A DNA stretch of 64,000 nt from Punica granatum (lineage: Eukaryota; Streptophyta; Magnoliopsida; Myrtales; Lythraceae): positions 41,987,885-42,051,884 of the forward strand of contig NC_045128.1 of NCBI RefSeq assembly GCF_007655135.1, written 5' to 3'. Positions 36,419-58,797 of this stretch are shown here, piece after piece. Below the pieces are notes generated by a model. The model saw only the letters and a program-made list of their open reading frames with translations. It was not told where the DNA came from and did not search any database. The translations under genes and the position numbers were made by a program. Each line of letters begins with the position of its first letter. Within the stretch, counting starts at the first letter, position 1.

Positions 36419-36485
36419 GTTAATGTGCGATATATAAACCTAATTATTTAACTTAAATAATTAGGTTTATATATCGCACATTAAC
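36419..36485. repeat. Perfect 67-bp palindrome
   Basis: Two 33-base arms, beginning GTTAATGTGCGATATATAAA on the left and ending with its exact reverse complement on the right, meet at a single central C (36452). I checked pairing base by base; the next flanking pair (36418/36486) fails. It could extrude as a cruciform or be transcribed as a hairpin with almost no loop. Confidence 0.95.
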
Positions 36486-39981: not shown

Positions 39982-42900
39982 TTAAGGAGAAAGGTAACGG
40001 GTCATCCATGAAGTGAAGCGGGACCATGCCAGCTGTACAGCGGCTTCATCTTCATCCTCCATCCCCATGCTCTTCCTTCTCTTCACTCCCTCTGGAGATC
40101 TGTTCATGAAAGCATGTCCAATTCCAGGGTAAATGTGCACCTCATAAGGGACTCCTGATGCCTTCAGTTTCTCCTCCAAAGCCTTTGCAGCCTGATAAAG
40201 TAAAAAAGGATATCAAATATTGTTATCTACAAGCAGGGACGGACCCAGGATTTCAATTGCTGGGGGGGTGGGGGGGTGCGAACTCTTTGAGTGGGGGCAT
40301 AGAATAATAATGCTTCCGATTTAGGGGAGGCGAACATAAGGATTTTCATAAAAAAATGGACCATATATAATATATAAATTTCCTTATAACGTCAAAATTT
40401 TAGGGGAGCAACTACCGCCCTTAGTCCCCTCCTCAGTCCATCCCTGTCTACCAGCATGTAAGGGAATTAATATTAAAGTCACATCCTCATTCGACATCTT
40501 TGTGATGAATGCTATCTACTATATCAACGATATGATACTGCTAGTTCTAAGCAAATGTTGAAGCACTCCCAGAAGGTTCTTTTGATGATAAGCAACTCAC
40601 TACGGAGCCAACCTTCTCCTATGCCATGAACAGCCCATAACCCCAAATTACAGTTTCTAATAAATTTGGGCCAACTTCATGCAGCTGATGAAGAGATGCC
40701 AAAAGCGTAAAACAATGGCACAAAGAGCCACCTTAAAATCCGTCTAAGTCCACGTCTTTCACCAATCAACAAAGTCACGCGATTAATGAAAGTATAATCT
40801 CAGTTAAGCAGAGTTCCATATTTAATCAACTTAAATCAAGTTCATTCAATAAGTTGGTCAGTGTAATATATAGAAAGAGAAAGAATAGGCTCCCATCGGT
40901 ACCCAAAATGCAGCTTGAACGAAGACTGAAGTGATCATACCGTAACATCTGAAAAGCCAACAAAGTTATCACGCTCCCCAAAATGAGCCTGCACTGGTGC
41001 CTTAGCCTTGGCAGGATCAGCGAGCTCTGATGATGGCACTCCATAGAAAGCAACAACAGCATCAACCTCAGGGACTAAAACTGAGCTTGCGATAGAAAGA
41101 GCACCTCCCATGCAAAAGCCAGTGACACCAACCTGTTGGACAGATGAGAGATTACTTCTCTAGAGACAAAAGGGGATAAAAGCTTCTTGGGTCAGAAAAT
41201 TCAAAATGACGAGAACATATACATTGAGCCAAAAGGATTTGGTTGTTTTTGTACGCGGATTATAAACAAGATAAACAGGATTAAAAATCAAACAAGAATA
41301 CCTCAAGGGTACTCAGATAGACTTCTTATTATGCATATCCAAACGAAAATACACAGAATGATAGTTTGCAAAAGTGCAAAAGGAATACTGGAAACAGCAA
41401 TCAGAAAGGCGATTAACAGAATCATACTACGAACCAACCCAAATGGTCGTTCCAGACTATACAAGGTTTGCATTCATCACAGACTTTCGCAGTTTTGACT
41501 CCTAATTTCTTTCTTTCTTCGATTCCTCTAAGAATATAAAGCTTCTCATTATCAGAATGCTTCTTCAGATGAATGGTTCCTTCAAAGAGTACTTCTATGA
41601 GCTCTATCCTTCTCATATGGGGAATAGTTTGAATGATTCTTTGATAGCTCTGAAACTGGGCTTCAGTCCTAATATCCAGATTATTTTCTTCAAGGGCTCT
41701 CTTCCTAGATTCCACTGGGTTCATTCTAGCTTTTTTCCTAGATCCTTCTGGATTCATCTATAATCAAACCAAAAGAATTTTCAGAATGCTTTCCCTGGAT
41801 TATCGCACCAAGATATGTGAGTATGCTTCACTGGATTTAGAGGGCCGAGGGCACGCTACCAGCATCGAGAGGCCTTGCAGGATCAATTGGAATATTGGTT
41901 CCAGAACTCGGGTAGTTAACCTGAGCTTGTCAAGCTTTCTTAGATTCTTCTAGAGAGATCCTTAGTGAGAATACTAAATTCGTTAACCTGCTTCTTGATT
42001 TCATTAATATCTTCCTTATGGGGTAAGACTATTACTTCGGGAGCTTTCTCCAGAATTTCTTCCTGAATACTAGATGTACTTCCTACAGAGATTATATTTT
42101 TACGACTGGGTAACAGACTCATGAGACCTTTTCTAGATTTCTTTTTGATAGTGATGACTCCATTCTTTTCTACCTCAGAGATTCTAGCATCTTCTATCAG
42201 AATATCAGTAGAATAATTACCAAGTTCATCACGCAAAGACACAACAGAGTATAGATCATCCATGAGTACTAACCTGTGCTTTTCTCTTCAGGGTTGCTTG
42301 CCTGAGTCTTCTTCTGATTATATCAAGAGTGCTTCAAGAATTATATCAGAGACTAAGCGTATAAAGTAACACATGATTTCATAAACAAACATATATGATT
42401 GAACATGGAACATACTCAGAATATGAATAATTTGATCTTTATTCTCAGTCAAATGCTTGAGTTTCTAAAGATAAGGATAGACACTAGTTTTCGCTCTCCG
42501 GCTACAGAGAGGACCTGACGCATACAAAAACCATAAGCTCCAGAGGCTACCGTACCTGTGGCTCTGCCTGCGGCCTCCTGCCTGTGGCTCTGCCGGTGGT
42601 CGAGCACTCAACTTAGAGGGTAATTGCGCTATTCAAGGTGCCTTACAATGAAGAAGGCAACTCCCTTATATAGAGGGGGTCGACGCATCCAGACCATCGA
42701 TAAGCGACGGTCTAGATTCAGATCTAGAAAAAGGTAGCAAGTGGCCTGACAAAAGGCGCACTAACCAAAAAGTAATGGATGACAGCTAACAAAGTGCCAG
42801 AGTCATAAAGTAAAAGACAACGGACACATGGCCAAGTGGCCGACACAAACAGCTAAGACATAGCTGTAAGATTCCTTGGTGACGTCATGGGGGACGTCAG

Positions 42901-45900
42901 TCTTCAATCAGCTCCAACTCGGGATCCGAGGCGACTTCTGGGCTGGACTCCTTCTGTTGGGCTTCTTCGGGCTTAGGACTGCAATGTTGGCATTTGTGGT
43001 TGCCAATCCATTCTCCTTTGAGGCCGGAGAGTTCTGCACAGAGCTCTTGCTGAGACCTGGGCTTGCATACTTCAAGATCCATGATGGGTCTTTCGAATGC
43101 TCTTAAAACCCTTTCTTGAGCAGGGTTCATCTTGAATTTTGGGTTAGGCGGATGAGACACAAGCAGAGTGGTGGCTGACTTGTATCTGACTGCTGTCTGT
43201 TCTTGCATATTTTGAAGGCGCTTGCATAAACCAACATAATTGACTATGTAGAATCCATCACGCTGGTCTTGCCTGAGAGCCTCCATGGGACATGAATCAA
43301 TCGGGGGATAGTTGAGATTGCTCTTGCCAACGACCATAAGAATACGGGCGTCGATTGCTTTCTCTTCAATATCCTCCCCCTTGGGAAAAAATCCTGGGTA
43401 GGTAGAATAACACTTGAGGAACATTGGGTTTCCCTCAAGAACTCGAATACAGAAAGTCCCGATTGCTTCCTGTAGCCTGCTTGGAAATAGCTTGAACTGC
43501 GACACCAAAGATTTGCCATCGCAGTAGATTGTATCAACCAGTCCACTCATGAAAAATTCGTAGACTGTATCGGCAGTAGCTTCTGGAAGAATAATGGCCT
43601 TAGGACCATAGGCGTTCCTCCAGATGGGGTAGAATCCTTGCATTTTGTAGGACTCCTTATATTCCACCAAAGACGTGAATCTCTGACGGAACTGCTCAAC
43701 TGTGAAGCTTTTAGATTCCTCGAATTCCTTTCTGGTAGGAATGGTTGAGATTGTTAGTGGTGCGTTGCTAGAACTGGGAGCTCCAGGGAAACGACCTAGA
43801 CTTCTTAGGCGGTTGATTCCATCTTGCTGCGGGGGCGGCGATGCAGCTTTAGCAGCGAATGTCTCGCTACTCTTCTTGAATGCTTCTTTAGCCTGGTCCA
43901 AAGTCTTGAAACTTTGGTGAGTAATTCCAGGCTTGCCTTGGACGTGACAAGCGAAATTATGCCACTCATCGTAGATTCCTTTCATCGGACCATTGAAGAT
44001 TACATAGAACTTCTTTGAAGACCTCCATTGTGGCTCCAAAGAGACTGCTGGAAGGACGGCGATTGAGGATTTGGCCTCAACCACTGCTGTGCTGGCTTCT
44101 GGGAGCTTGGACCCAGGAGCTGACTCTTCAATGCGGACAGAGGAGAGCTCGGACTCCTCTGCTTCTGAATCTTCATCTACTCTATCAGCCCATAATTTCT
44201 TAACAGGCTGCTCAGATTGCTCAATTCTCCTTCTTTCAGCGGAGAGACGAATATACTCAGGCTCTTTAGTCTCAGCTGGGAGAGACTCCTTCTTGTCTTC
44301 GAGACCAAGAATCTTCTTTAGCTGCTCTTTTTGCAGCTGAATACTTTCGATTTCTTTCATGATGGCTTCAACAGTAGCCATCTTAGAATCCACAATGTCG
44401 TCGAGAGCTTTCAGGGCTTACATTCTCGCGTAAGAGTGTCCGGGAGGTAGTTCTGACTTCCCTTGATGTGCTGTTCCTTGAATGAATACGGCTCCAACTC
44501 GAGTTGCCAACGGATTAATCTTCCTTGACTGTAGCCTTGTTTGAATCCTTTCAAATGCCTAAAACGAGTGACGTAACTGCTGTCAGTTCTCAGAATAAAC
44601 CTGCGAGGAAGTAGTTCTACGCGCCACTTCTTTAAGGTTTTTATGACTGCAAGCAATTCACGTTCATGAGTAGTATAATTCTGTTCAGCTTTAGAGAATG
44701 AACCACAGACATATTTACACAGACGTTCCTGCAAAAGAGTAGATACATTAGCATAAAAGGGCACCGAAGTGTCCAGATTTTTAAGGCTTCTTTTATGGCC
44801 CTCGGCTTTTGCCGGGATAAGGCGGGTACAAGACCGGGCCCTATCGCTACCACAGGGATTAGTGGTAGCACGAGTGCTAGTTGTACATTTAACGCAATGT
44901 ACGTGCGGAGTACTATCGTCGCGTTGAACACGCGGACTATGACTTAGCCTAGACGGAAATAAGCCATAGAATTTCTCATCCGAAGATGGGGTGTACGCCG
45001 AAGCGAAGAATAATTCATCATCCTCAAAAGAGGGACCATGCCTCATAAGAGACAGGAATTCTTTACCGTCAATTTCACTGGCTTTACCAATGACCGCAGT
45101 CATGGTACCAGACCAAGTGTCACCACTTGCATCTGTAGAAATAATAATCAAATCTTCATCAGAAGGATTATAAAGTGATGGGAGATTTTTACAAATAGAT
45201 TTCAAATATCTCACATTTTCTGAATCCTTTTCATTCCAAGACCAGACTCTTTTTTCTGAAAGTTTTTCTTGAAGACTCTTTCGAGCCTTTGAAAGATCCT
45301 TTAACCATCCCTGGTCAGAAATATAATTAAGACTACCAAGAAAACGTTGAAGTTGTTTCTTGTCTTCCATTTGATCTGGAAAAAAAATTAAATTTTTCAA
45401 GAATATGAGGTTGCAAACAAAAGTCTCCATTTTGCTTGATTGTAAGACCAAGAAAATCTATTTCTTTCTTACAGAGGATTGCTTTCTTTTTTGAAATAAT
45501 GATTCCTTTATCAAAACATCTTTTCAAGACTATTTTCAAATGCTTCTTATGGTTTTCCAAATATCCCTTTGAAAATATGATTATATCATCTATATAAGCA
45601 AGACAGAAAGAATCCAAACCTGAAAAATTTTCATCCATGAATCTCTGATAGATTGATGGAGCTTGTTTTAACCCGAATGGTAAAACATTGAATTCATACT
45701 GCTTCTGAGGAGGGCATGTGAATGCAGTTAACTCCTTAGTAGATTCCTCCAAACGAATCTGCCAATAACCAGACTTGGCATCCAGAGTGCTAAACCATTG
45801 ACATCCTTTGAGCTTAGCAAGAATATAATCCTTTCTAGGAAGACTATAAGCATCACCAAAAGTGGCTTCATTCATTTTCTTATAGTTTATAACCATACGC

Positions 45901-48900
45901 CTCTTTCCTCTCTTCAGCTCATTGTGATTCTCTACATAGAATGCTGGGGCAGAATGACGACTCTTGCTGGCTCTAATGACTCCTAGTTCTAGAAGGGTTT
46001 TACACTCTTCCTTGAATTCTTCTACATCCTTGATGGTATAAGGAATATTATTGGGAACCTTGACTTCTTTAAGGGGATCCTTAACCTTAATCTCGACTAG
46101 CATCTTGTTTCTATTCTTAGCTTGATCTAAGGGATTGTCGCTAGTGATAAAATCCAAAAGTCTTTCTATTTCAGCAGTATCTATTTCAGCTTCTATATCT
46201 TGGATGGACCTAGATATGTAGGCAAGGAGCCTAAGCTGTTTGACTCTATTGCTGTGATGGATTGGGATATGGACTATTTTCTTTTTCTGATTATCTAACT
46301 CAGGGCAAGTGAGTTCTATGAATCTAGTTCTCTGAACAAAAGGTTCGTAGAGTCTAAGGAAGTTATTTCCTATAATCATATCCATTCCAGAATCATGCTT
46401 ATAAATGCTAGGTATGGGAAACCTGATTCCTTCTATGACTAAGGTCATGAATTCTGCTCTATGATGAATCCTAAGGACAGACTTATCAGCAATGGCTATC
46501 TCTAAAGGATACTCCATAGTTTTCCAATACTTACTTGGTAGAAGACTAGGCTTTCCAAAGCATACACTGGCACCTGTATCAATATAAGCCATGATTGTTT
46601 TGTTAAGAATCTTAACCTGAATAAAAGTGGCATTAGGGTTTTCCCTAGGCATCACTAGAATAATCTGAATCCGAATACTCCGAATCTGTAACCAACTCAT
46701 AATAAGACTCATCACTATCATAGTCAGAATCCTCTATAGGCTCGTAATTCTTAGACATGATTCCTAAGAACATTTGGGCTCTATTGTTGCTACTATAAGA
46801 AAATGAATGAAGCCACTTTTGGTGATGCTTATAGTCTTTCTAGAAAGGATTATATTCTTGCTAAGCTCAAAGGATGTCAATGGTTTAGCACTCTGGATGC
46901 CAAGTCTGGTTATTGGCAGATTCGTTTGGAGGAATCTACTAAGGAGTTAACTGCATTCACATGCCCTCCTCAGAAGCAGTATGAATTCAATGTTTTACCA
47001 TTCGGGTTAAAACAAGCTCCATCAATCTATCAGAGATTCATGGATGAAAATCTTTCAGGTTTGGATTCTTTCTGTCTTGCTTATATAGATGATATAATCA
47101 TATTTTCAAAGGGATATTTGGAAAACCATAAGAAGCATTTGAAAATAGTCTTGAAAAGATGTTTTGATAAAGGAATCATTATTTCAAAAAAGAAAGCAAT
47201 CCTCTGTAAGAAAGAAATAGATTTTCTTGGTCTTACAATCAAACAAAATGGAGACTTTGTTTGCAACCTCATATTCTTGAAAAATTTAATTTTTTTTCCA
47301 GATCAAATGGAAGACAAGAAACAACTTCAACGTTTTCTTGGTAGTCTTAATTATATTTCTGACCAGGGATGGTTAAAGGATCTTTCAAAGGCTCGAAAGA
47401 GTCTTCAAGAAAAACTTTCAGAAAAAAGAGTCTGGTCTTGGAATGAAAAGGATTCAGAAAATGTGAGATATTTGAAATCTATTTGTAAAAATCTCCCATC
47501 ACTTTATAATCCTTCTGATGAAGATTTGATTATTATTTCTACAGATGCAAGTGGTGACACTTGGTCTGGTACCATGACTGCGGTCATTGGTAAAGCCAGT
47601 GAAATTGACGGTAAAGAATTCCTGTCTCTTATGAGGCATGGTCCCTCTTTTGAGGATGATGAATTATTCTTCGCTTCGGCGTACACCCCATCTTCGGATG
47701 AGAAATTCTATGGCTTATTTCCGTCTAGGCTAAGTCATAGTCCGCGTGTTCAACGCGACGATAGTATCCGCACGTACATTGCGTTAAATGTACAACTAGC
47801 ACTCGTGCTACCACTAATCCCTGTGGTAGCGATAGGGCCCGGTCTTGTACCCGCCTTATCCCGGCAAAAGCCGAGGGCCATAAAAGAAGCCTTAAAAATC
47901 TGGACACTTCGGTGCCCTTTTATGCTAATGTATCTACTCTTTTGCAGGAACGTCTGTGTAAATATGTCTGTAGTTCATTCTCTAAAGCTGAACAGAATTA
48001 TACTACTCATGAACGTGAATTGCTTGCAGTCATAAAAACCTTAAAGAAGTGGCGCGTAGAACTACTTCCTCGCAGGTTTATTCTGAGAACTGACAGCAGT
48101 TACGTCACTCGTTTTAGGCATTTGAAAGGATTCAAACAAGGCTACAGTCAAGGAAGATTAATCCGTTGGCAACTCGAGTTAGAGCCGTATTCATTCAAGG
48201 AACAGCACATCAAGGGAAGTCAGAACTATCTCCCCGACACTCTTACGCGAGAATGGAAGCCCTGAAAGCTCTCGACAACATTGTGGATTCTAAGATGGCT
48301 ACTGTTGAGGCCATCATGAAGGAAATCGAAAGCATTCAGCTGCAAAAAGAGCAGTTAAAAAAGATTCTAGGTCTTGAAGACAAGAAGGAGTCTCTCCCAG
48401 CTGAGACTAAGGTTCCTGATTACATTCGGGAATCTGCTGAGAGAAGAACTATTGAGCAGTCTGTGCAGCCTATTAAGAAATCATGGGCTGACAAAGCTGA
48501 AGAAGAGTCAGAAGCAGAAGAGTCCGAGCTCTCTCCTGCCCGCATTGAAGAGTCAGCTGTTGGGTCCAAGCTCCCAATAGCCAGCACAGCAGTGGTTGAG
48601 GCCAAATCCTCAATTGCCGTCCTTCCAGCAGTCCCTTTGGAGCCACAATGGAGGTCTTAAAAGAAGTTCTATGTAATCTTCAATGGTCCGATGAAAGGAA
48701 TCTACGATGAGTGGCATAAGGTCGCTTGTCACGTCCAAGGCAAGCCTGGAATCACTCACCAAAGTTTCAAGACTTTGGACCAGGCTAAAGAAGCATTCAA
48801 AAAGAGTAGCGAAACATTCGCTGCTAAAGCTGCATCGCCACCGCCGCAGCATGATGGAATCAACCGCTTAAGAAGTCTGGGTCGTTTCCCTGGAGCTCCC

Positions 48901-51900
48901 AGCTCTAGCAACGCCCCACCAACAATCTCAACCATTCCTACCAGAAAGGAATTCGAGGAGTCTAAAAGCTTTACAGTTGAGCAGTTCCGTCAGAGATTCA
49001 CATCTTTGGTGGAATATAAGGAGTCTTACAAAATGCAAGGATTCTACCCCATCTGGAGGAACGCCTATGGTCCTAAAGCCATTATTCTTCCAGAAGCTAC
49101 TGCCGATACAGTCTACGAATTTTTCATGAGTGGACTGGTTGATACAATCTACTGCGATGGCAAATCTTTGGTGTCGCAGTTCAAGCTATTTCCAAGCAGG
49201 CTACAGGAAGCAATCAGGACTTTCTGTATTCGAGTTCTTGAGGGAAACCCAATGTTCCTCAAGTGTTATTCTACCTACCCAGGATTTTTTCCGAAGGGGG
49301 AGGATATTGAAGAGAAAGCAATCGACGCCCGTATTCTTATGGTCGTTGGCAAAAGCAATCTCAACTATCCCCCGATTGATTCATGTCCCATGGAGGCTCT
49401 CAGGCAAGACCAGCGTGATGGATTCTACATAGTCAATTATGTTGGTTTATGCAAGCGCCTTCAAAATATGCAAGAACAGACAGCAGTCAGATACAAGTCA
49501 GCCACCACTCTGCTTGTGTCTCATCCGCCTAATCCAAGATTCAAGATGAACCCTGCTCAAGAAAGGGTTTTAAGAGCATTCGAAAGACCCGTCATGGATC
49601 TTGAAGTATGCAAGCCCAGGTCTCAACAAGAGCTCTGTGCAGAACTCTCCGGCCTCAAAGGAAAATGGATTGGCAACCACAAATGCCAACATTGCAGTCC
49701 TAAGCCCGAAGAAGCCCAACAGAAGGAGTCCAGCCCAGAAGTCGCCTCGGATCCCGAGTTGGAGCTGATTGAAGACTGACGTCCCCCATGACGTCACCAA
49801 GGAATCTTACAGCTATGTCTTAGCTGTTTGTGTTGGCCACTTGGCCATGTGTCCGTTGTCTTTTACTTTATGGCTCTGGCACTTTGTTAGCTGTCATCCA
49901 TTACTTTTTGGTTAGTGCGCCTTTTGTCAGGCCACTTGCTACCTTTTTCTAGATCTGAATCTAGACCGTCGCTTATCGATGGTCTGGATGCGTCGACCCC
50001 CTCTATATAAGGGAGTTGCCTTCTTCATTGTAAGGCACCTTAAATAGCGCAATTACCCTCTAAGTTGAGTGCTCGACCACCGGCAGAGCCACAGGCAGGA
50101 GGCCGCAGGCAGAGCCACAGGTACGGTAGCCTCTGGAGCTTATGGTTTTTGTATGCGTCAGGTCCTCTCTGTAGCCGGAGAGCGAAAACTAGTGTCTATC
50201 CTTATCTTTAGAAACTCAAGCATTTGACTGAGAATAAAGATCAAATTATTCATATTCTGAGTATGTTCCATGTTCAATCATATATGTTTGTTTATGAAAT
50301 CATGTGTTACTTTATACGCTTAATCTCTGATATAATTCTTGAAGCACTCTTGATATAATCAGAAGAAGACTCAGGCAAGCAACCCTGAAGAGAAAAGTAC
50401 AGGTTAGTACTCATGGATGATCTATACTCTGTTGTGTCTTTGCGTGATGAACTTGGTAATTATTCTACTGATATTCTGATAGAAGATGCTAGAATCTCTG
50501 AGGTAGAAAAGAATGGAGTCATCACTATCAAAAAGAAATCTAGAAAAGGTCTCATGAGTCTGTTACCCAGTCGTAAAAATATAATCTCTGTAGGAAGTAC
50601 ATCTAGTATTCAGGAAGAAATTCTGGAGAAAGCTCCCGAAGTAATAGTCTTACCCCATAAGGAAGATATTAATGAAATCAAGAAGCAGGTTAACGAACTT
50701 AGTATTCTCACTAAGGATCTCTCTAGAAGAATCTAAGAAAGCTTGACAAGCTCAGGTTAACTACCCGAGTTCTGGAACCAATATTCCAATTGATCCTGCA
50801 AGGCCTCTCGATGCTGGTAGCGTGCCCTCGGCCCTCTAAATCCAGTGAAGCATACTCACATATCTTGGTGCGATAATCCAGGGAAAGCATTCTGAAAATT
50901 CTTTTGGTTTGATTATAGATGAATCCAGAAGGATCTAGGAAAAAAGCTAGGATGAACCCAGTGGAATCTAGGAAGAGAGCCCTTGAAGAAAATAATCTGG
51001 ATATTAGGACTGAAGCCCAGTTTCAGAGCTATCAAAGAATCATTCAAACTATTCCCCATATGAGAAGGATAGAGCTCATAGAAGTACTCTTTGAAGGAAC
51101 CATTCATCTGAAGAAGCATTCTGATAATGAGAAGCTTTATATTCTTAGAGGAATCGAAGAAAGAAAGAAATTAGGAGTCAAAACTGCGAAAGTCTGTGAT
51201 GAATGCAAACCTTGTATAGTCTGGAACGACCATTTGGGTTGGTTCGTAGTATGATTCTGTTAATCGCCTTTCTGATTGCTGTTTCCAGTATTCCTTTTGC
51301 ACTTTTGCAAACTATCATTCTGTGTATTTTCGTTTGGATATGCATAATAAGAAGTCTATCTGAGTACCCTTGAGGTATTCTTGTTTGATTTTTAATCCTG
51401 TTTATCTTGTTTATAATCCGCGTATAAACCTAGTTACATATTATAAAAGTTAGATGCAGAAAAGACATTTAAGACTTGTAGAGGAAAAAGGACCTTCTTG
51501 GAGCCATTTGCCTTGAGCCAGTTCACCGAAGCATGGATGTCCTTCACGGCACCTTGCCAATCCAGACCATCCATCAAGTGTTGTGCTTCTGCAACATCCA
51601 AACCTACCTTTCCTCGATACAAGCTACAAGGAGTAGAAAAAAAAAAAGAGTCAAAAGGTGATTGTGTGACTGAGCATTTCATTAAGTATATCTCGGTTTG
51701 AGGGCAGAATATACATACTCTGGAATCAGTGCCTTGAAACCAGGTTCCAGCTGTGAGATTTTCTGGGCGTGGTTCTTGATCTCGAAATCCACACCCCACC
51801 ACTCCTGAAGAACGACAATCCCTGGAGCATCTTCTTTGCCGATCACATAGGCGTCAAACGCCTAAACAGGGGTTGTGAAAAAATGAATCATATACATTTT

Positions 51901-52630
51901 CTGTGGCAGCTTTACTAGTGATCAGCAGGAGTGTGTGTAGAGCATGATTGATAAATCGAACATGTGATCAGCGACATAGCCGTTCAACAATCAAAGAAAA
52001 TCAGAAACACTGATAAATAGAACTTGTTATCACTAATGTTAGCCGGTCAATAATCAGACAACGAAAATAAACCAATCAACAGGAATAGTTGGGTCTGTAC
52101 ATTTTTTAAGGAAGTTCACGAATTTATTTTGGCCACTGGCAGTTCACCATTTCTACTGCAAATTTCAGTCACAACATTCTCACGCACTGACCAAACGAAA
52201 CCCCCAATCATGTGCTAGGGACGTGTATTTTGATTGTGCTAGGAAAAATTGGTTCTTGAAATGGCTAATTTTGACAGAGCATTGAGCTCCAAGCAAAGAC
52301 AATATGCACAGTGCCAGAAAAGAAACAAAGGAGCAAAAGCAAAACAAAACCCATAAACTAAATCCGACTCAAAAAAAATAAATATATATATATATATATA
52401 TATCCATCAACGATTGAAGAGAAGGATCTCACGGTGTTCTCTCTCTGGATTTGGATTTTCTTGAAAGGGGCGGAGTCGGCCATTGAGCGGATCGGAGAAC
52501 GGCGGAAGGCTGGGGAGAGTGGCCGTGCGAGGGAAGAGGGTACTAAGCTCCCGCTGAGTGCTCTGCCGATGATTCTCGAAGACAGTGATGCTGCTGCTGC
52601 TGATGACTGTGATACCAGAGCTGCCACCAT
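39982..52630 (-). CDS. Dienelactone hydrolase family protein, split by a 10.4-kb virus-bearing intron
   Basis: Five exons in coding order 52630-52433, 51861-51719, 51623-51494, 41132-40941, 40191-39982 encode 290 residues with all phases closing. The protein is an alpha/beta-hydrolase of the carboxymethylenebutenolidase family. The triad is C164 (GFCMGG), D212 (FGERDNF) and H247 (PGIGHAF); EWWGV in exon 2 is also a family signature. Residues 1-50 are Ser/Arg-rich with few acidic residues before MADSAPF, which suggests an organelle transit peptide; a second start at M50 would give the cytosolic form. The native substrate of plant members is not settled. Intron 3 (41133-51493) contains an inverted pair of endogenous pararetrovirus copies, yet the exons and splice sites on both sides are intact, so the gene may still be expressed. 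The start codon is 156 bases from that of the divergent PPR gene. Confidence 0.93.
40234..40446. mobile_element. hAT-type MITE in DLH intron 4
   Basis: A 213-bp element with terminal inverted repeats CAGGGACGGAC and GTCCATCCCTG (one mismatch, ending at 40446) is flanked by an 8-bp target duplication, TCTACAAG (40226-40233) and TCTACCAG (40447-40454), one mismatch. The 8-bp duplication and CAGGG ends are those of hAT elements. It contains G-rich runs and no ORF. Confidence 0.85.
41422..41757 (-). CDS. Viral small ORF, 111 residues, unknown (left arm)
   Basis: An open frame of 111 residues, last before the outer edge of the arm. It starts [14 protein letters not shown] and is strongly basic at the N terminus. 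The middle is likely helical ([17 protein letters not shown]). Near the C terminus is a CDECKPC cluster that could bind a metal. I do not recognise a family. In a circular caulimovirid map it would lie between the leader and the missing movement-protein region. The same ORF is intact in the right arm. Confidence 0.6.
   Translation of the reverse strand: MNPEGSRKKARMNPVESRKRALEENNLDIRTEAQFQSYQRIIQTIPHMRRIELIEVLFEGTIHLKKHSDNEKLYILRGIEERKKLGVKTAKVCDECKPCIVWNDHLGWFVV
41940..42263 (-). CDS. Viral small ORF, 107 residues, unknown (left arm)
   Basis: First ORF of useful length after the viral leader, 107 residues, starting [15 protein letters not shown]. It has a Lys/Arg-rich centre (IKKKSRKG) and a C-terminal heptad-like segment ([16 protein letters not shown]) that may form a coiled coil. 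No family is recognised. The right-arm copy is also open; one residue differs in the C-terminal segment (NEF here, NEL there). Confidence 0.6.
   Translation of the reverse strand: MDDLYSVVSLRDELGNYSTDILIEDARISEVEKNGVITIKKKSRKGLMSLLPSRKNIISVGSTSSIQEEILEKAPEVIVLPHKEDINEIKKQVNEFSILTKDLSRRI
42438..42443 (-). terminator. Viral poly(A) signal, left arm
   Basis: AATAAA on the minus strand, about 200 bases after the expected transcript start. Caulimovirids place the signal in the leader so that transcripts are terminally redundant. Confidence 0.6.
42666..42899 (-). promoter_or_regulatory. Viral pregenomic-RNA promoter, left arm
   Basis: TATATAA (complement of 42666-42672) followed by GGGAGTTGCCTTCTTCATTG resembles the core of caulimovirus large-transcript promoters. 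At 42880-42899 are two TGACG motifs 12 bases apart, the spacing of the as-1 element. They overlap the stop codon of the transactivator ORF. The promoter points toward DLH exons 4 and 5, in the sense direction. Confidence 0.7.
42897..44381 (-). CDS. Viroplasmin/translation transactivator (ORF VI type), left arm, open
   Basis: An open frame of 494 residues from [11 protein letters not shown]. The N terminus is a charged helix followed by acidic stretches. A viroplasmin (Cauli_VI) domain covers about residues 125-180, with [16 protein letters not shown] and [14 protein letters not shown]; this fold resembles the N-terminal module of RNase H1. The middle should match the transactivator region of caulimovirus P6, which lets ribosomes reinitiate on polycistronic RNA and forms inclusion bodies. 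The C terminus has [10 protein letters not shown] followed by a Glu-rich tail. It lies 30 bases after the RT stop codon, the expected place. The frame is complete, unlike the right-arm copy. Whether it is ever expressed is unknown; its own promoter is not evident. Confidence 0.85.
   Translation of the reverse strand: MATVEAIMKEIESIQLQKEQLKKILGLEDKKESLPAETKEPEYIRLSAERRRIEQSEQPVKKLWADRVDEDSEAEESELSSVRIEESAPGSKLPEASTAVVEAKSSIAVLPAVSLEPQWRSSKKFYVIFNGPMKGIYDEWHNFACHVQGKPGITHQSFKTLDQAKEAFKKSSETFAAKAASPPPQQDGINRLRSLGRFPGAPSSSNAPLTISTIPTRKEFEESKSFTVEQFRQRFTSLVEYKESYKMQGFYPIWRNAYGPKAIILPEATADTVYEFFMSGLVDTIYCDGKSLVSQFKLFPSRLQEAIGTFCIRVLEGNPMFLKCYSTYPGFFPKGEDIEEKAIDARILMVVGKSNLNYPPIDSCPMEALRQDQRDGFYIVNYVGLCKRLQNMQEQTAVRYKSATTLLVSHPPNPKFKMNPAQERVLRAFERPIMDLEVCKPRSQQELCAELSGLKGEWIGNHKCQHCSPKPEEAQQKESSPEVASDPELELIED
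44411..46652 (-). pseudogene. Pararetroviral protease/reverse transcriptase/RNase H, frameshifted (left copy)
   Basis: The polyprotein starts at 46652 (MPRENPN), overlapping the stop of the preceding acidic ORF. An aspartic protease motif YIDTGAS is at about 46585, the RT palm motif YIDDI near 45590, and an RNase H part follows ([10 protein letters not shown]; later ERELLAVIK and LRTDSSYVT). The frame is broken around the A9 run at 45380-45388 (plus strand): the upstream frame runs on to a stop at 45333 while the downstream frame is open to 44411. The stretch between RT and RNase H (44800-44960) looks unlike a normal connection. The part 45887-46652 has no counterpart in the right arm. Confidence 0.85.
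45887..46791 (-). other. Unique spacer (loop) between the viral arms
   Basis: A 905-bp viral sequence present once. It encodes, leftward, the end of an acidic coat-protein-like ORF, the whole protease and the start of RT, and is continuous with the left arm. It would form the loop if the intron RNA folded through the two arms. Confidence 0.9.
46645..46790 (-). pseudogene. C-terminal end of a coat-protein-like ORF
   Basis: A short frame rich in Asp, Glu, Ser and Tyr ([20 protein letters not shown] at 46758 leftward) ends at TAG 46645, overlapping the protease ATG. Acidic Ser-rich tails end caulimovirus coat proteins, and the coat gene lies just before the RT gene. The rest is missing because the right arm begins at 46792. 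Confidence 0.55.
46792..48265 (+). pseudogene. Pararetroviral RT/RNase H, truncated and frameshifted (right copy)
   Basis: It begins in the RT domain without protease. RT motif YIDDI is near 47080. Two homopolymers differ by one base each from the left copy (T-run near 47255 and T8 at 47290-47297), so the frame stays open here over a stretch of altered residues. A one-base loss near 47765 then breaks the frame, which resumes for RNase H (about 47912-48265). Confidence 0.85.
48295..49779 (+). pseudogene. Viroplasmin/transactivator, premature stop (right copy)
   Basis: It corresponds to the open left-arm frame. A single C-to-A change relative to the left arm creates TAA at 48658-48660, right at the start of the viroplasmin domain. 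Downstream the frame is open again from 48661 to 49779. Further small substitutions distinguish the arms in the acidic N-terminal part. Confidence 0.9.
49777..50010 (+). promoter_or_regulatory. Viral pregenomic-RNA promoter, right arm
   Basis: TGACG motifs at 49777 and 49789 (12-base spacing, as-1-like) lie about 210 bases upstream of TATATAA at 50004-50010. Transcription would run rightward, antisense to DLH exons 3 to 1 and toward the PPR gene. In cauliflower mosaic virus as-1 is much closer to the TATA box, so activity cannot be assumed. Confidence 0.7.
50233..50238 (+). terminator. Viral poly(A) signal, right arm
   Basis: AATAAA about 225 bases after the TATA box, mirroring the left-arm signal. 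Confidence 0.6.
50413..50736 (+). CDS. Viral small ORF, 107 residues, unknown (right arm)
   Basis: The same ORF as 41940-42263: N terminus [15 protein letters not shown], basic centre, heptad-like C terminus. It is open, with one residue different from its twin. Function is not recognised. Confidence 0.6.
   Translation: MDDLYSVVSLRDELGNYSTDILIEDARISEVEKNGVITIKKKSRKGLMSLLPSRKNIISVGSTSSIQEEILEKAPEVIVLPHKEDINEIKKQVNELSILTKDLSRRI
50919..51254 (+). CDS. Viral small ORF, 111 residues, unknown (right arm)
   Basis: The same ORF as 41422-41757, with the CDECKPC cluster near its end. It is open and its translation is identical to that of the twin. Function is not recognised. Confidence 0.6.
   Translation: MNPEGSRKKARMNPVESRKRALEENNLDIRTEAQFQSYQRIIQTIPHMRRIELIEVLFEGTIHLKKHSDNEKLYILRGIEERKKLGVKTAKVCDECKPCIVWNDHLGWFVV
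52382..52403. repeat. (AT)11 microsatellite in DLH intron 1
   Basis: Eleven AT units, 30 bases from the exon 1 donor site. Confidence 0.95.
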
Positions 52631-52786
52631 CGCGATGTTCCTTCCCGACCGGTCTTACTTTATTCTCCTGACAGCATAAAGCCTCTCGACGGGCTCGATA
52701 ATAATTTTTGCAGCTACGACGTCGTCTTGCTTTACTGTTTTATCTTGTAGATGGGCTGAGGCTGGGCCAGGCCAGAGTGAGAGCAC
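52631..52786. promoter_or_regulatory. Shared divergent promoter region of DLH and PPR genes
   Basis: Only 156 bases separate the two start codons. The stretch includes GACGTCGTC and ATGGGCTGAGGCTGGGCC, a GGGCC-type motif like the site II elements common upstream of housekeeping and organelle-protein genes. No clear TATA box serves either side. Confidence 0.6.
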
Positions 52787-54190
52787 ATGCAAACCTCCGC
52801 CGAGGGCCACCTCCGACTCCTCCAGCGCTTCGTTGACCAACCGGCCCAAGTCAAACAGATACACTCCCGCCTCGTCATCACCGGCCACCTCCTCCTCAAT
52901 TCCGCCGCCGCCCCCCCACCGTCGCCGGCGACCTCGACATGGCTCCCCACTCTCTTATACAACGCCCTCGTGAGGTCCTACTCCCGCTCCGGCCAACCCC
53001 ACGAGGCCCTCGTCCTCTTCACCCACATGCTCGCCCACCGGGCACCGCCCAACTCCCTCACATTCCCTCCCCTCGTAAAATCCTCTGTCCTTCTCCCCAG
53101 TTGGGGCCGACCCCTCCATGCCCAGGCTATCCGGCGCGGTGTTTCGTGGGACCCGTTCATCAAGACCTCGTTCATCAACTTCTACGCCCGTATAGGTCGA
53201 CTAGCTGATGCCCTCCAAGTGTTCGATGAAATTCCTAACCCGTGCCTCGTTGCATGGAACGCGAAACTCGATGCGCTGTGCAGGAATGAGGCGATGGGAT
53301 CTGCTCTCTCGGTGTTCAATTCCATGCCGGAGCTTGACGTGGTGTCGTGGACGAGTCTGATTAGTGGGCTTAGTAGCAACGGGAACTTCCATGAGGCCAT
53401 TGACATCTTCAGGAAGATGAATTTGAGACCGAACGAGGCCACTTATGTGAGTGTGCTCTCTTCTTGTGCCCATTTGCAGGGAGGAGGTGGACTGCGTAAA
53501 GGAAAGCAAATTCATGGGCATTTAATCCGGTGCGAATCCGAATTATCCGTCTTCGTCGGGACAGCCATTGTAGACCTCTACGGTAAAACAGGTTGCTTGA
53601 GAAATGCGGAGAAAGTTTTCGACCGAATGGGTGTGAGAAAGGTCTTTACGTGGAATGCGATGATATCTTCACTTGCTTGTAACGGTGAAGAGAGGCAGGG
53701 CCTCGGCATGTTTGGCGAGATGTTATCAAATGGTCTGAAGCCGAATGCTCTCACTTTCATTTCAGTTCTTACGGCCTGTGCTCGTGGGCAGTTCGTGGAG
53801 TCAGGTCTCGAACTGTATCGGTCTATGACAAAAGACTTTGGATTGGAGCCGTTAATGGAGCATTACGGGTGTATAGTTGATCTGTTGGGCAGGGCAGGGC
53901 TACTGAGCGAGGCATCAGAGTTCATAGAGAGCATGCCGTTTGAGCCTGATGCATCGGTTCTTGGGGCTCTACTGGGTGCTTGTAAGATTCATGGCGCGAT
54001 TGATCTTGGGAACAGAGTGGGAAGGAAGTTGCTTGAGATTCAGCACGGTCAACGTTGTGGACGAACCATAGCGTTATGGAACATTCTTGCTGAGTCAAAC
54101 GAGTGGAACAGTGCTGCTAATTTGAGGAAGGCAATTGTGGAGTCGGGCATCGAGAAAATCCCAGGATTCAGTTTTCTCGACTCTCTCTAG
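52787..54190 (+). CDS. Pentatricopeptide repeat protein (PLS/E-type), intronless
   Basis: Encodes 467 residues. PPR proteins bind organelle RNA, each 35-residue repeat contacting one base, and are usually imported into mitochondria or plastids. Repeats are recognisable from about residue 60 (YNALVRSYSRSGQPHEALVL) and include AWNAKLDALCRNEAMGSALS, VVSWTSLISGLSSNGNFHEA, FTWNAMISSLACNGEERQG and YGCIVDLLGRAGLLSEASEF. An E-type end follows (MPFEPDASVLGALLGACKIH to IEKIPGFSFLDSL). There is no DYW domain, so the protein cannot deaminate by itself. QVKQIHSRLVITG near the N terminus is typical of plant PLS-class members. Lack of introns is normal for the family. It is head-to-head with DLH. The target RNA is unknown. 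Confidence 0.94.
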   Translation: MQTSAEGHLRLLQRFVDQPAQVKQIHSRLVITGHLLLNSAAAPPPSPATSTWLPTLLYNALVRSYSRSGQPHEALVLFTHMLAHRAPPNSLTFPPLVKSSVLLPSWGRPLHAQAIRRGVSWDPFIKTSFINFYARIGRLADALQVFDEIPNPCLVAWNAKLDALCRNEAMGSALSVFNSMPELDVVSWTSLISGLSSNGNFHEAIDIFRKMNLRPNEATYVSVLSSCAHLQGGGGLRKGKQIHGHLIRCESELSVFVGTAIVDLYGKTGCLRNAEKVFDRMGVRKVFTWNAMISSLACNGEERQGLGMFGEMLSNGLKPNALTFISVLTACARGQFVESGLELYRSMTKDFGLEPLMEHYGCIVDLLGRAGLLSEASEFIESMPFEPDASVLGALLGACKIHGAIDLGNRVGRKLLEIQHGQRCGRTIALWNILAESNEWNSAANLRKAIVESGIEKIPGFSFLDSL

Positions 54191-54939: not shown

Positions 54940-55088
54940 AAATTTAGCCATCTTCCATAAAGGAGCCGAATGAAACCAAAGTTTCATGTTCGGTTTTGAA
55001 TTAGAGACGTTAAAAATGATGAATCAATATCGACTATAACCCTTAGCCTTCCAAGCAAACGATGCGGGTTCAATTCCTACTACCCACT
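54940..55088 (+). pseudogene. trnG-UCC: Plastid trnG-UCC remnant: intron end and 3' exon
   Basis: A group II intron domain V-like hairpin (GAGCCGAATGAAACC pairing across to GTTTCATGTTCGGTTT) is followed by the 3' tRNA half with anticodon arm CCTTCCAAG and T arm GATGCGGGTTCAATTCC, ending near 55088. CTTCCAA gives anticodon UCC. The T stem and acceptor carry changes (TTCAATTCCTACTACCCACT), and the 5' exon is absent, so no tRNA can be made. Confidence 0.75.
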
Positions 55089-57805: not shown

Positions 57806-58797
57806 TCATAAGGATATTGAATAGTTACAGGTAAACGGTTTGCATGGGATGGGGTAATCATGAACCCATGACCAAAGATAAGAATATTGACTCTCTTTTT
57901 TCTTAATAATCATTCCTATCAAAGATATGAAATTCATTATGTAAGGTATGATTATAAAAGGAGGATGAAGTCGAGCTACAAGAAAAATTCCCGCGGCTAC
58001 CATAGTAGCAGCATGGATAAGAGCCGAAATAGGAGTAGGGCCTTCCATGGCATCAGGTAACCATACATGAAGGAGGGATTGTGTAGATCTGGCAACTGCA
58101 CTTGTAAATAAAAGAAAGTAACACAAAGTAACAAATAGAAAATTAACTTCATTATTATAAATCATGTTATTGAATATTTCAAACAAATCCGGAAATTCAA
58201 GACTACTCATTATCCAATAAAGTCCTAAAATTCCTAATAATAAACCAAAATTTCCTACACGACAGTTACAAATGCTTTTTGACAAGCAGTTGCCGCAACA
58301 GGTCGGGTGAACCAAAAACCTATTAAAGTAAGAACACATTCCGACTAATTCCCAAAATATAATTTGTATCAAATTAGAACTAGTAACTAATCCCAAAATT
58401 AAAGTATGAAAAAACTCAGATAAGCAAAAAAATTCAAATATCCTTGATCATGAGACATATAATTATCACTATAAAAAAGAACCAAATTCCAACTGCAGTA
58501 ATTAATATTAACATAATAGAAGTAAGTGGATCGATTAAGTAAACGAATTCTAAAGAAAAATCATTATTAATGGTCCAAGACCGTACATATAAATAAATAG
58601 AACTTCTACTTATTTGTTGAACATATAGACTGAAAGAATCATAACTATACTTAACAATAAAATACTAGGAAAAGCCCACACACGAAGAAGATTTTTTGTT
58701 GTCGTTTAAAAAAAGTAAAAGTCCCACTCCTATTAACATAGTAACTGGTAGTGGAATGCAAGGTATAATCCATGAATATCGATATGGATATTCATAT
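57806..58797 (-). pseudogene. ndhF: Plastid ndhF 5' part
   Basis: The N-terminal part of NAD(P)H dehydrogenase subunit 5, from the equivalent of the start near 58797 ([15 protein letters not shown] is readable) through [31 protein letters not shown] and [17 protein letters not shown] sequence (here [20 protein letters not shown]). Several frameshifts occur near 58260-58330 and 58600-58700. The C-terminal half of the gene is absent. Confidence 0.9.

Follow-up and report, generated by a model that had tools for sequence, protein, structure and literature searches.

Inverted repeats of endogenous caulimovirids that are accompanied by 22-nt small interfering RNAs (siRNAs) are already known from tomato and soybean (PMC10377300). 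Intronic copies are likewise known from grapevine, where 9% of endogenous florendovirus loci overlap genes, nearly all of them in introns; for these viruses, capture during break repair has been proposed (PMC4241990). In rice, the junctions of endogenous copies with host DNA were found to be concentrated in the intergenic region and around the discontinuities, and integration after reverse transcription was proposed in 2004 (PMC526188). How hairpin-forming viral loci arise in plants is an open question, one that lies behind the idea of heritable RNA-based immunity. Here we analyse a 64,000-bp stretch of the Punica granatum genome (NC_045128.1, positions 41,987,885 to 42,051,884; hereafter the window), in which an inverted repeat of a soymovirus-like pararetrovirus lies within intron 3 of an intact dienelactone hydrolase gene (DLH). 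The ends of this repeat suggest a concrete origin, the joining of reverse-transcription products, and its intron position would put the hairpin under a host promoter.

The closest described counterparts are the tomato 'TSAs' (Valli et al. 2023; via PMC10377300 and PMC12904150), which are likewise hairpin-capable caulimovirid inverted repeats. Unlike these, as far as the two sources portray them, the Punica locus is soymovirus-like, intronic in an intact gene and bounded by the minus-strand gap, and it is known from sequence alone. In contrast to the rice case (PMC526188), the arrangement here, seen at two loci, is a pair of inverted segments whose outer ends both fall at the minus-strand gap. 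With the florendoviruses it shares the occurrence of intronic copies, but these belong to a different virus group and the word 'inverted' is absent from the main text of PMC4241990. As far as the open-access literature searched shows, it is new for the two arms of an inverted pair each to end outwardly at the minus-strand gap, as they do at two loci here, one of them within an intact gene. Hairpin DNAs of cauliflower mosaic virus (CaMV), formed by reverse transcription in vivo and ending at the minus-strand start, were reportedly described by Covey and Turner in 1986; such molecules would match the precursor predicted here but are extrachromosomal, and they are not known to have been shown to integrate.

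An inverted pair of viral arms in a DLH intron

Comparison of the window with itself recovered a left arm at 41248-45886 and a right arm at 46792-51428, which are 98.125% identical in inverted orientation; in 4639 aligned columns they differ by 85 mismatches and 2 gaps. The length and identity of this match are far beyond chance, and at E ≤ 1e-20 the only other repeat in the window was one 67-bp palindrome. A preliminary description, which had been made from the letters of the window and had proposed such a self-comparison as a check, gave a span of 41252-51424, correct to within 4 bp; the outermost 4 bp of the arms are ambiguous and include one mismatch. The 905-bp loop that it had placed between the arms lies at 45887-46791, and the whole repeat falls, as it had stated, within DLH intron 3 (41133-51493).

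DLH is encoded on the minus strand by five exons, with GT/AG borders at all four introns and a 290-aa spliced frame that carries the FCMGG motif and matches PF01738 (E = 7e-60). Its exons are located at 52433-52630 (exon 1, coding part), 51719-51861 (exon 2), 51494-51623 (exon 3), 40941-41132 (exon 4, with the FCMGG motif) and 39982-40191 (exon 5 to the stop codon, the end being counted from the 290-aa frame). The exon borders proposed earlier (51494 and 41132) are confirmed, as is the earlier view of the gene as intact. Intron 3, on the same strand, measures 10,361 bp, and the inverted repeat takes up all but 180 bp of it.

The left arm has its viral sense on the minus strand and comprises part of the reverse transcriptase (RT), RNase H, the transactivator (TAV), a promoter/leader region and small open reading frames, whereas the viral sense of the right arm is on the plus strand. 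The loop, also on the minus strand, holds the tail of a coat-protein frame (by eye, against a related copy on C1), the protease and the start of RT, and is continuous with the left arm, since an open frame crosses the border between them. Read by eye, the two viral segments overlap by 2 bp (GT) at the inner join (46791/46792), with no filler between them, and the host borders of the insert show no target duplication apart from an ambiguous TA. The lack of an integrase-type target duplication fits an integrated inverted dimer made by reverse transcription.

Inverted duplications are a known class of assembly error, and a fold-back read or a misjoined repeat could in principle produce such a structure. 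Given the 85 differences between the arms, the 905-bp unique loop and outer ends that stop at a viral landmark and adjoin different flanking sequences, we regard an artefact of this kind as highly improbable.

Viral content and affiliation

Pfam domains follow the expected order of Peptidase_A3 (PF02160), RVT_1 (PF00078), RT_RNaseH (PF17917) and Cauli_VI (PF01693). The left arm and loop carry them on the minus strand; the right arm, from which the protease is missing, has them on the plus strand. Protease, RT and RNase H domains occupy adjoining, overlapping pol frames: an open frame with Peptidase_A3 and RVT_1 at 45333-46733 (minus strand) forms the first piece of pol, and one with RT_RNaseH at 44411-45457 (minus strand), where the frame is broken in the left arm, forms the second. 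In the right arm, the RVT_1 frame at 46761-48035 (plus strand) is a stop-to-stop frame that starts in the loop, and pol is broken further on; each arm thus has one break in pol, at differing positions. The transactivator is a separate gene downstream of pol in both arms. Its frame is open in the left arm (42897-44417, minus strand, 506 aa), while the right-arm copy carries an in-frame stop and is cut by this upstream stop to 48661-49779 (plus strand).

Past the transactivator, each arm has an as-1-like element (left arm TGACG-N7-TGACG, 42883-42899, minus strand; right arm 49777-49793, plus strand), a TATA box (left arm CTATATAAGG, 42664-42673, minus strand; right arm 50003-50012, plus strand), an AATAAA signal 230 nt after the TATA start (42438-42443, minus strand; 50233-50238, plus strand) and two small frames, which gave no significant Pfam match (best E = 0.049). 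The strands of the domains and of these promoter elements indicate that viral sense and promoters face outward; the left TATA box points toward DLH exon 4, in sense, and the right one points antisense into exons 3 to 1.

The pol product is 57% identical to that of soybean chlorotic mottle virus, and an RT record named Punica granatum matches at 94% identity, covering 42% of the query. When 24 proteins were placed in a tree, with labels taken from the pol match list and genera in part assigned by us, one branch (support 97/96) united the window sequence with the Punica record, all 8 soymovirus-labelled rows and 4 others, and all 7 caulimovirus-labelled rows fell outside it. The caulimovirid identity assigned in the preliminary description is thereby confirmed by the Pfam domains and narrowed: on the evidence of these sequences the virus is soymovirus-like and belongs to the soymovirus side of the tree. 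A tblastn search of a viral contig collection found no relative of the pol piece. Among the insert frames scanned, none had a Pfam match to movement or coat protein; by eye, a 48-aa tail can be read at the start of the loop, where it extends a zinc-knuckle-like frame of the C1 copy. The insert is a viral fragment, not a genome.

The RT gene contains a purine tract, GAAGAGAGGAAAGAGG, at positions 45900-45915. It is separated by 13 nt from where the right arm ends on its inner side, and by 29 nt from where one C1 copy ends; it is a possible plus-strand start, which we note as a lead.

Outer ends at the predicted minus-strand start

Both arms terminate in GTTTATAATCCGCGTA, after which their flanks diverge. 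The motif TTTATAATCCGCG occupies 41254-41266 at the left outer end (minus strand) and 51410-51422 at the right outer end (plus strand). Across the genome (320,430,517 bp in 474 contigs), this 13-mer occurs nine times, namely in the two window arms, five times on C4 and at two apparently unrelated places; a reversed control pattern had five matches. Four of the five C4 copies precede a tRNA-Met primer site by 7-8 nt, and near forms of the motif precede it by 9 nt on C8 and by 12 nt on C7. In all, eight copies on C4, C7 and C8 have the motif, exact or nearly so, 7-12 nt ahead of the primer site. In the Caulimoviridae, minus-strand DNA begins at this tRNA-Met primer site. With the site located by means of these relatives, both outer ends of the insert are at the putative minus-strand start.

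The same boundary recurs elsewhere. Among 20 places at which the motif was read, 12 end there (two in the window, two at C2:3.33 Mb and eight on C4) and 8 continue to the primer site (four on C4, one on C8 and three on C7). Ends were also counted with a 1001-bp probe across the primer site (probe positions 516-527), which gave 38 matches; the self match and six rows of 66-117 bp were dropped and 31 matches were used. At ≥98% identity, 6 of 8 match ends fell within 15 nt of the primer site (expected 0.36) and 7 of 8 within 45 nt. At ≥80%, the corresponding counts were 8 of 18 (expected 0.82) and 13 of 18 (expected 2.0), and with no identity threshold they were 8 of 34 (expected 1.55) and 20 of 34. 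Ends of low-identity matches may be alignment limits. The ends accumulate on both sides of the primer site. In an initial alignment the arms seemed to stop ~250 nt before the primer site, a placement overturned by the motif search, and random breakage of the outer ends is unlikely given their shared end motif and the pile-up of ends.

In the second locus with this configuration, C2:3334176-3353392, a related virus forms an inverted repeat of 19.2 kb that is near-perfect. Its arms of ~9.6 kb are 99.95% identical over 7825 bp and 99.86% identical over the central stretch, and are separated by a 15-nt centre loop. Its two outer ends share the terminus CCGCGTGAGTAA, beyond which the flanks differ, and its centre is located shortly after the primer site (position 558 of the probe, against 516-527). 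Each arm thus appears to represent a single turn of the viral circle, open at the gap.

Differences between the arms

The substitutions between the two window arms are strongly clustered, with 63 of 85 located in one 798-bp tract (7.9%; left arm 43650-44447, minus strand; right arm 48229-49026, plus strand). The best-segment score was 68, whereas the highest score among 200 shuffles was 12.8. Within the tract, 38 of 60 differences in the transactivator fall at third codon positions (p = 2e-6), 39 of 63 substitutions are transitions, and 31 of the 53 differing codons are synonymous and 22 amino-acid changing. Outside it, there are 22 differences in 3841 bp (0.57%), 21 of them transitions (4 of these 21 at CG or CHG sites), and third positions account for 7 of 14 in coding sequence. 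This contrast between third-position bias and transition excess suggests that the tract differences arose under selection in the virus, and that the remainder resembles later decay. The latter would give a rough age of ~0.4 million years (22 substitutions in 3841 bp, at a rate that we take to be 7e-9 per site and year), on which we do not rely.

As the simplest reading of this pattern, the arms appear to derive from two viral variants, one of which was probably a recombinant. Between the arms, the tract is 92% identical, whereas other matches to it in the genome reach at most 79% over more than 54 bp (n = 33, a lower bound on the number of matches), the best two having 79% identity across 179 bp and 85% across 54 bp. 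Gene conversion of the tract from a surviving genomic copy was rejected, as there was no candidate donor among these matches.

A head-to-head pair could also form in cis, if a single minus strand snapped back and copied itself, giving arms identical at birth. The coinciding outer ends would then follow automatically, and such a route suits the palindrome at C2:3.33 Mb, with its arms at least 99.86% alike and its 15-nt centre loop. For the window, however, it must contend with a third-codon-biased tract that differs by 7.9% against 0.6% elsewhere; since this divergence is clustered and biased in this way, plain self-copying is excluded here unless one arm was later converted, and we consider a snap-back origin of the window repeat unlikely.

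Proposed origin of the inverted pair

Taken together, we think it probable that the insert represents a soymovirus-like endogenous pararetrovirus that entered the genome as an inverted pair, in which joined, gap-open reverse-transcription products were captured in the DLH intron, with a hairpin RNA as a plausible outcome. Two reverse-transcription products from two viral variants, both open at the minus-strand gap, would have been joined head to head at their other, unfinished or broken ends. This could have occurred by end joining, or by a growing minus strand switching onto another minus strand. The DLH intron, which measures ~180 bp without the insert, would have taken up the joined dimer when a break in it was closed by end joining.

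Several observations weigh against this origin. We found no tRNA-Met primer site (0-1 mismatch) within the insert, and its place is taken from relatives that are ~65% identical in the leader. The C4 relatives hold ~250 nt, from a small hydrophobic frame to the gap motif, that are absent from both window arms (41248-41330). Moreover, 14 of 34 probe match ends (any identity) are separated from the primer site by more than 45 nt, for example those of the C1 left arm (probe position 763) and of a C4 copy (452), and the end counts are non-independent because many C4 copies, and in part the C7 copies, are near-duplicates. The two-variant case rests on a single tract, and conversion by a since-lost copy would look alike; purifying selection on this tract was only moderate, given that 22 of its 53 differing codons alter the amino acid.

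Related inverted joins in the genome

Additional inverted joins of this virus family were detected beyond the window. At C1:49337622-49341049 / 49341410-49344791, a virus 96% identical to that in the window forms an inverted repeat with arms of 3.4 kb (97.7%), only one of whose two outer ends reaches the primer site. A cluster at C4:9745000-9875000 contains many soymovirus-like copies in both orientations with inverted joins, one of which is a palindrome at the minus-strand gap (GTTTATA/TAAAC), and a further inverted join is present at C5:22.236-22.241 Mb. Based on the joins at C1, C2, C4 and C5, inverted pairs are frequent rather than singular for this family in the genome. At C7:15750690-15772504, four loop-probe matches share the same orientation with a period near 7.0 kb, and this unit may itself hold an inversion, since a nearby primer-site motif lies in the opposite sense. 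From these loci we tentatively suggest, with appreciably less confidence than for the window itself, that inverted dimers open at the minus-strand gap may be a regular integrating form of this virus group; hairpin siRNA loci would then be born ready-made, with no later chromosomal rearrangement.

Near the inner join of the C1 repeat, a 17-nt stretch is repeated in a manner resembling templated filler. The primer-site pattern also had a chance match in an array with a period of ~745 bp at C1:34657464-34733953, which probably represents 5S rRNA genes.

Predicted hairpin RNA and possible consequences for DLH

Read-through transcription of DLH would pass the right arm in antisense, then the loop and then the left arm in sense. 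Because the arms are crossed in opposite senses, the intron RNA would be able to form a stem of ~4.6 kb, for which we predict 4552 Watson-Crick pairs, 34 G-U pairs and 53 mismatch or gap columns in 4639, with 3503 of 4619 21-mers and 3467 of 4618 22-mers perfectly paired. The stem had previously been called perfect; its multi-kilobase pairing stands, but with these 53 mismatch or gap columns the longest perfect run is 511 bp. The stem would probably feed Dicer-like enzymes at some level, and its likeliest effect would be silencing of the insert and its close kin, perhaps including the parent virus. Splicing of DLH may be little harmed, since folding would leave the splice sites no more than ~180 nt apart.

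A hairpin RNA from DLH read-through is plausible on this sequence, and the earlier claim to this effect holds insofar as folding is possible in principle and the host gene is intact. The accompanying idea of a constitutive siRNA source fares worse, being opposed by the AATAAA that read-through would meet in sense (42443), by the outward TATA and as-1-like elements and by possible silencing of the insert.

The strongest form of that idea is a selected antiviral hairpin, in which DLH expression would give constant siRNAs against the parent virus, as proposed for rearranged endogenous pararetroviruses of tomato. The long stem with its paired 22-mers, the intact host gene and the tomato precedent (PMC10377300) speak for it. 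Against it are the viral AATAAA in the sense path and the few 21-mers that the stem has in common with other endogenous copies: 162 of 5733 with C1, 54 with C2:3.33 Mb, 205 with C4, 57 with C7 and 11 with C8, compared with 0 of 5733 at two loci that lack a viral match. With so few shared 21-mers, protection, if any, would be narrow among the viruses seen here, and we judge selection for an antiviral role quite improbable.

The insert could instead burden DLH, through outward promoters that would drive antisense transcription of exons 3-1 and sense transcription of exons 4-5 and through a poly(A) signal that would cut the pre-mRNA, the locus otherwise being silenced chromatin. Both arms have kept the TATA box, the as-1-like element and AATAAA, and transitions make up 21 of the 22 substitutions outside the tract, as in decaying methylated DNA. 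Yet the coding frame and splice sites of DLH are intact and just 4 of the 21 transitions are at CG or CHG sites, so that we regard such a burden as somewhat doubtful.

Neighbouring features

A PPR gene at window 52781-54190 on the plus strand is divergent from DLH and has a short upstream region in common with it. The 67-bp palindrome, near-perfect at 98.5%, is located at 36419-36485. Further along the window, a group II intron match (54961-55040) and a frame with Proton_antipo_M (57809-58447; NADH dehydrogenase-like) are perhaps inserted organelle DNA.

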